A stretch of DNA of 64,000 nt, taken from NCBI GenBank assembly GCA_001874305.1, contig MPCU01000002.1:372001-436000 (forward strand), given 5' to 3'. The notes under the pieces are model-generated. The model did not search any database. It was not told the DNA's origin and worked only from the letters and a program-made list of their open reading frames with translations. The first letter of the stretch is position 1, and every line of letters starts with the position of its first letter. Below, in pieces: positions 49,679-51,227 of the stretch. This stretch comes from Bacteriovorax sp. MedPE-SWde (lineage in GTDB: Bacteria > Bdellovibrionota > Bacteriovoracia > Bacteriovoracales > Bacteriovoracaceae). Position numbers and translations under genes: made by a program.

Positions 49679-51154
49679 TTAATCTAATTGATAGTTTGGT
49701 GCTTCTTTTGTCACCATCACATCATGTGGGTGACTTTCTTTTAAAGATGCTGCAGTTATAGTTATAAACTCGGCCTTCTCTTGAAGTTCATCTATAGTTT
49801 TCGAACCAACGTATCCCATTCCTGAACGAAGACCACCTACTAATTGATAAATATTACTAGCAAGAGAACCTCTATATGGAACCTGTCCTTCAATCCCTTC
49901 TGGAACAAGTTTTCTATCTTCTACTGAAGCTTGACCATAGCGATCCTTTGATCCTAGCTTCATTGCCCCTAAAGATCCCATTCCTCTATAAACTTTATAA
50001 GTTCTACCTTGATAAAGAATCATTTCTCCAGGTGTTTCATCACACCCCGCAAACATGGATCCAAGCATGACACAACTAGCTCCGGCAGCAATCGCCTTGA
50101 CCATATCTCCAGAGTACTTAATTCCACCATCTGCAATAAAAGGAATTCCCGCTTTCTTACAAACAGAAGCGCACTCCATAACAGCAGAAAGTTGAGGTAC
50201 ACCTATTCCTGCTACAACTCGAGTTGTACAAATAGACCCTGGTCCAATTCCTACTTTTACACCATCAACGCCTGCTTCAATCAACGCTTCACAGGCCTTT
50301 GCTGTTGCAACATTTCCAGCAACGATATCTAAAGACTGACCACTTGGAACTAAGGACCTGATTGTTTTAACCATATCGATAACACCTTTAGAATGCCCAT
50401 GAGCGGTGTCAATGATTATACAGTCAACATTTGCTGCCATAAGAGCTTGTGCTCTTTTAACTTCTTTTTCACCAACTCCGATAGCTGCCGCAACACGAAG
50501 TCTTCCAAATTCATCTTTATTAGAGTTTGGATAATTAATATTTTTAAGAATATCTTTTATTGTTATAAGCCCTTGTAACTTTCCTGATTTGTCGACAACA
50601 AGTAGCTTCTCAATTCTATGCTCATGTAAGATTGATTTAGCTTTCTCTAGCTCAATACTAGATTCTGCTGTAATCAATCTATCCTTTGGAGTCATAAGGT
50701 CTTTAACTTTTTGAGAGAGATTACTTTCAAATCTCATATCTCTACTTGTTAAAATTCCAACAAGGTTTTCATTCTTATCTACAACTGGAACACCGGTAAT
50801 ATTATGTTTATCAGTTATTTTTACAACTTCACTCAGAGAGTCTTCTGGTCCAACAGTGACAGGATTCATAACAATCCCTGACTCAAACTTCTTAACCTTT
50901 TCCACTTCCCATGCTTGCTCTTCTGCAGACATATTTTTGTGAATAACACCAATTCCACCCTCTTGGGCCATAACGATTGCAGTCTTAGATTCAGTAACTG
51001 TATCCATGGCCGCAGAAACAATTGGTATTGTTAATGAGATATTTCTTGTGAACTTTGTTTCGAGAATGGCATCACTTGGGAGCACCTCAGAGTAACCTGG
51101 CCTAATGAGAACATCATCATAAGTTAGAGCATTGTCAGTGAGTACTTTTGACAT
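49679..51154 (-). CDS. guaB: IMP dehydrogenase
   Basis: 491 residues. Oxidises IMP to XMP with NAD+, the committed step to GMP. Has an (alpha/beta)8 barrel interrupted by two CBS domains (about residues 95-205, e.g. [16 protein letters not shown] and [14 protein letters not shown]). The active-site loop is GPGSICTTR with the catalytic Cys near 305, and the mobile flap carries [25 protein letters not shown] lies five bases before the ATG but is part of a long inverted repeat (51158-51227). Confidence 0.97.
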
Positions 51155-51157
51155 AGA

Positions 51158-51227
51158 AAATCCTAGTTTATTTAAGTAATAATAATTGTTTTAAATAGTT
51201 GTTATCACTTATATTTTACTAGGATTT
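51158..51227 (-). promoter_or_regulatory. Long inverted repeat over the guaB ribosome-binding site
   Basis: Arms AAATCCTAGT (51158-51167) and ACTAGGATTT (51218-51227) are perfectly complementary; inside them AAGTAATAA and TTATCACTT pair at 8 of 9 positions. In guaB mRNA the proximal arm contains the SD, so folding would mask it. The same DNA could instead be a paired operator. Confidence 0.5.

Follow-up and report, generated by a model that had tools for sequence, protein, structure and literature searches.

The gating of read-through messages by hairpins formed over ribosome-binding sites is already known from phages and mobile elements. In bacteriophage T4, long upstream-initiated transcripts carry the lysozyme gene e with a closed Shine-Dalgarno (SD) sequence, and the gene's promoter lies inside the 5' strand of the occluding structure such that its own transcripts are made without that strand and are well translated, an arrangement that is also found for soc, 49 and I-TevI (PMC3014915). 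The guaB leader described here, from a Halobacteriovorax-like host (Bacteriovoracaceae, a family of marine predators), resembles gene e in having an SD that is predicted to be closed in long transcripts (pairing 1.00), and conserved -10 motifs suggest that RNA from its own promoter would lack the anti-SD strand. It differs in that guaB is a housekeeping gene for nucleotide synthesis on a bacterial chromosome, in having an ordinary sigma-70-like -10 rather than a phage late promoter, and in that its predicted hairpin is retained through a bacterial family even as the arm sequences turn over. In the transposase genes of IS10 and IS50 the read-through RNA folds over the ribosome-binding site and the own-promoter RNA does not, which is also the state predicted for guaB, although there a mobile element guards against activation by its neighbours whereas guaB is a core gene. 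A further relation is with pyrC and pyrD of E. coli and Salmonella, where nucleotide pools select starts a few bases apart and an SD-occluding hairpin is present in the longer message only. Like guaB, these are nucleotide-biosynthesis genes with such a hairpin near the 5' end, but the arm at guaB lies mostly upstream of the -10. A search for literature on guaB leaders in Bdellovibrio-like bacteria found nothing, and the locus would represent a device of a familiar type in an apparently unreported place. The reading preferred here, with a probability of about 0.57, is that the hairpin, with the predicted guaB promoter nested in it, is a gate of the T4 gene e type that silences read-through messages.

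The window, by which is meant the whole 64-kb stretch of DNA that was analysed, carries guaB 102 nt downstream of its neighbour on the minus strand, where the leader ends ...AAATCCTAGT AAAATATAAGTGATAACAACTATTTAAAACAATTATTATTACTTAAATAA ACTAGGATTT TCT ATG. An earlier note on this DNA had described perfect ten-base outer arms around a near-perfect inner pair, positioned so as to hide the guaB SD, and this description is confirmed. The outer arms are 100% complementary over 10 nt and 50 nt apart, and when read on the minus strand they extend to 11 pairs including one G-U, while the inner stem joins TAAGTGATAA with TTATTACTTA, again with one G-U (Table 1). The repeat folds as RNA at -18.1 kcal/mol (z = -4.6), a stability equalled by none of 200 shuffles, and the stem over the SD has p = 0.002 against shuffles. 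A bare 10-bp repeat is itself not rare, as the window contains six distinct perfect inverted repeats of this length when loops as long as 60 nt are allowed, and the question therefore becomes whether coverage of the SD is kept in relatives. What makes the repeat notable is that the SD is covered and that this is retained with compensatory change. The sequence ACTAGGATTT occurs 12 times in the genome against 17 for the reversed control, and in showing no excess it is not a repeated operator.

Table 1. Features of the guaB leader and its surroundings in the window.
Feature	Position	Strand	Basis
guaB, IMP dehydrogenase with two CBS domains	49679..51154	-	ORF; Pfam IMPDH E 2e-161 and CBS; ATG at 51154
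SD (AGGA) of guaB, 6 nt before ATG	51161..51164	-	sequence
Outer stem, proximal (3') arm, containing the SD	51158..51167	-	repeat search, fold
Outer stem, distal (5') anti-SD arm	51218..51227	-	repeat search, fold; compensatory changes in genus
Inner stem, 3' arm	51173..51182	-	sequence, fold
Inner stem, 5' arm	51202..51211	-	sequence, fold
Predicted -10 TAAAAT, within AGTAAAAT, between the arms	51213..51218	-	by homology; start predicted near 51206
Upstream gene, co-directional, 382 aa	51257..52405	-	ORF; C-terminus ...DYKESY conserved beside guaB family-wide

guaB was detected in 107/129 genomes of the family, and close relatives as judged by this gene are Bacteriovorax sp. DB6_IX, at 90% protein identity, and Halobacteriovorax. 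Upstream DNA was collected and oriented, with start codons picked by rule, to give 100 leaders for the statistics. These are referred to by arbitrary genus numbers, of which g1 denotes the six genomes of the window's own genus. For each leader the best uninterrupted stem with a 3' arm overlapping the SD, its energy taken as an approximate nearest-neighbour sum, was compared with those obtained after dinucleotide shuffling of the stretch that precedes the SD, and 189 genes with an upstream gap of at least 60 nt, drawn from 20 family regions and the window, served as controls. The SD stem beats the shuffles in 46% of guaB leaders at p<0.05 and in 35% at p<0.01, as against 6.9% and 2.6% of controls, and when genus medians are taken 14/41 and 11/41 fall below the same thresholds (binomial p 3e-7 and 6e-9 relative to the rate among controls), with stem energies that also separate guaB from controls at the genus level (p = 2e-6). 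Outside the family, 5% of 42 guaB leaders reach p<0.05 and none reaches p<0.01, and the stem is not significant in five leaders that come from other families in the phylum. SD sequestration is therefore a feature of guaB in the Bacteriovoracaceae and is not universal. About half of the leaders and two thirds of the genera have no significant hairpin when taken singly, and a single genus, g24, contributes 20 of the 46 significant leaders. Within g1, p is about 0.01 or lower in four of the six members and compensatory change is seen, which speaks against the window repeat being an accident whatever its relatives show. An accident would fit with the abundance of such repeats in the window and with the two g1 members, L011 and L012, that are not significant, but it is considered improbable.

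The manner in which the arms vary bears on whether they act as RNA or as DNA. Between genera the arms are wholly different (for instance GCTATCC, CTCCAAA, CCTCAGGC and ATCCTAGT) yet complementarity is kept, and the distance between them ranges from 3 to 57 nt. In g24, with 19 distinct sequences, 94% of cells are paired and 10 cells are changed on both sides, a level of covariation reached by none of 500 shuffles, and G-U pairs are frequent. Across g1 and g11, where the arms were aligned by hand as a MAFFT alignment of the seven leaders was misaligned and was not used, both sides are changed in three of ten pairs and G-U forms occur in four. The compensatory changes that the earlier note had proposed to look for in relatives are thus present, and such turnover of the arms, with compensatory and G-U changes, argues for RNA pairing with the SD. 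The same note had allowed for a pair of DNA operators, and a repressor that binds both arms around the promoter would suit the way in which the predicted -10 is bracketed by the repeat, the usual place for an operator. Against this, neither a conserved half-site nor a fixed spacing was found among the genera, whose arms vary freely in both respects while complementarity to the SD, with its G-U pairs, is maintained, so that an operator seems quite unlikely. Its proposal of an RNA switch controlled by GMP fares still worse. A riboswitch for guanine nucleotides would be favoured only by its position before guaB, and no Rfam match was found in a scan of the whole window, in keeping with the note's own remark that no known purine riboswitch could be recognised. 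Conservation of the loops was sought within a genus and none was found, which argues against a small-molecule pocket, and with neither a known covariance model nor a conserved ligand core to be seen in what is a simple stem with no junction, this explanation is very improbable. Two leaders have palindromes of their own. In L013 (G002) a perfect 16-17 bp palindrome, TTAAAATATAAGCAATTATTTTGCTTATATTTTAA, lies 60 nt upstream of guaB inside the g1 repeat and spans the predicted -10; it is longer than closure of the SD requires and may be an RNase III substrate in read-through RNA. In L024 (G038) the SD hairpin is replaced upstream of guaB by TTGCGGTG-TATAAT-CACCGCAA, which is perfectly palindromic about the -10 and has the look of either a DNA operator or a small hairpin.

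Fundamental to the preferred reading is the placement of the promoter. Of about 35 exact TATAAT matches in 250 nt, 24 fall in a peak 30-59 nt ahead of the ATG, and the motif AGTTANNAT (AGTTA[ATG][AT]AT), carried by g1, g11, g3, g33 and G042, has 13 matches at -30 to -80 and 0 elsewhere in the 250 nt examined. The window's copy, AGTAAAAT, occupies the same position between the arms, one T short, with a weak -10 (TAAAAT) and the poor -35 of g1. The anti-SD sequence is found just upstream of the -10 in g72, g8, G078 and others and directly after it in g6, g33 L128, G020 and G042. In g24 a TATYCT in the 5' arm is invariant (21/21), and beyond an unconserved stretch there is a second conserved block at -23..-17, giving a spacing of about 16-17 nt. 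A TAAAT in the same genus was considered as the -10 and is disfavoured, since it would leave a spacing of only about 7 nt to the conserved block upstream. From these motifs the guaB -10 appears to be placed between the arms in g1 and other genera, or inside the distal arm in g24, and with a start 6-7 nt after the -10 the predicted own-promoter RNA would lack the anti-SD arm wholly or for the most part in every arrangement. The predicted pairing of the SD has a median of 1.00 in read-through RNA against 0.56 in own-promoter RNA, with a value of 0.57 for control genes folded from -30. For L026, L128, L137 and L144 the SD of the own-promoter RNA is also predicted to be mostly paired, and the count of arms upstream of the predicted start, 37/42 against 31.7 expected from shuffles, is only a slight excess. 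A transcription start inside the repeat, the finding that the earlier note had set against its own interpretation, is what the conserved -10 predicts; with such a start the idea of a hairpin acting on the own-promoter guaB message is refuted, and a role in blocking read-through is suggested instead. A more general warning follows: since a promoter may be nested within it, a stable SD-occluding hairpin found in a sequence is not necessarily one that acts on the gene's main transcript.

The source of any read-through would be the upstream gene, which is co-directional in 44/46 loci with long flanks and mostly without a terminator. It is usually one and the same gene, with a DYKESY-like C-terminus, at gaps of about 54-176 nt, and is replaced in g24 and g5 by a different gene ending GYVLRI. 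In the window no terminator was found on the guaB strand from 53300 to guaB. The window's upstream gene has no Pfam match, and it stays beside guaB in dozens of genera. Where the leader is preceded by a terminator, a strong stem-loop or an opposed neighbour the hairpin is significant in 1/11 cases as against 45/89 of the others (p = 0.01, or p = 0.09 without g24), though the list of 11 was drawn up after the data had been seen and two of its cases (L014 and L032) were judged by eye, such that the contrast is suggestive only. The first test, of terminators alone, was not significant (p = 0.21). Within g8 the contrast can be seen directly, the hairpin not being significant in L015, where a stem-loop lies upstream, whereas a perfect 8-bp GC-rich hairpin is found in L133 and L135, both of which lack a stem-loop.

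The repeat, its enrichment in the family, the compensatory changes, the conserved -10 and the co-directional neighbour are all computed, and from them we infer where transcription starts, that a read-through RNA exists and how translation is affected. With the guaB promoter sitting between, or inside, the arms, a polymerase reading through from the upstream gene would generate a message with both arms, in which the SD would be shut away by the hairpin, while the own-promoter message would begin downstream of the anti-SD arm and, having no outer stem, would be translated. In this process guaB, and probably guaA too, would be made dependent on the guaB promoter, with read-through being filtered out. 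A different role for the hairpin, as a regulatory element of a normal guaB message that starts further upstream and in which the structure is opened or stabilised by temperature or by an RNA-binding protein, be it GuaB acting via its CBS domains or some other, would account for its great stability and its coverage of the SD, and would be helped by an AT-rich CATAAT that precedes the repeat in both the window and L010, and by the inner stems of g1, which extend pairing across the -10 region. It is rather unlikely, in view of the conserved -10 inside the repeat in several genera and of stems and loops that hold no conserved sequence for a protein to recognise. Start-site switching of the pyrC/pyrD kind, with nucleotide pools choosing between starts a few bases apart so that only the longer message holds the anti-SD arm, would find a place where TATAAT is followed immediately by the arm, which there borders on the predicted start (g6, g33 L128, G020, G042), but most genera, the window's included, have the arm upstream of the -10 and beyond the reach of a shift of a few bases, and the mechanism is considered quite improbable.

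If the read-through gate is real, it would mean that chromosomes insulate core genes from upstream operons in this manner, here for a gene of central metabolism, family-wide and with arms that diverge yet remain complementary. A wider proposal, which is tentative and on balance doubtful, is that the gate ties the GTP synthesis of these predators to guaB's own promoter, possibly under growth-phase or nucleotide control, with transcription of the envelope-type operon upstream falling in a different phase, such as the non-growing attack phase. Pairing would then be selected while sequences turn over, with each genus re-evolving its own anti-SD arm. Any importance for predators would lie in this distinction between attack and growth phases.

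Strong stems over the SD also occur among other genes of the family. A ribonuclease E/G-like gene, so assigned by sequence reading, has an 11-bp SD-covering hairpin (L212 11200-11260, G124; shuffle p 0.005), which recalls the autoregulation of RNase E through its leader. Two control genes likewise have strong SD-covering stems, one of 13 bp (L214 13870-13950, G132) and one of 11 bp before an ABC-F-like ATPase, as judged by sequence (L207 17155-17232, G012). Finally, one genome contains a second IMPDH/GMP-reductase-like gene (L002/L003, G000:C12:157101-158111), with 45-48% identity in two segments, which is probably a GMP reductase or a CBS-less paralogue.
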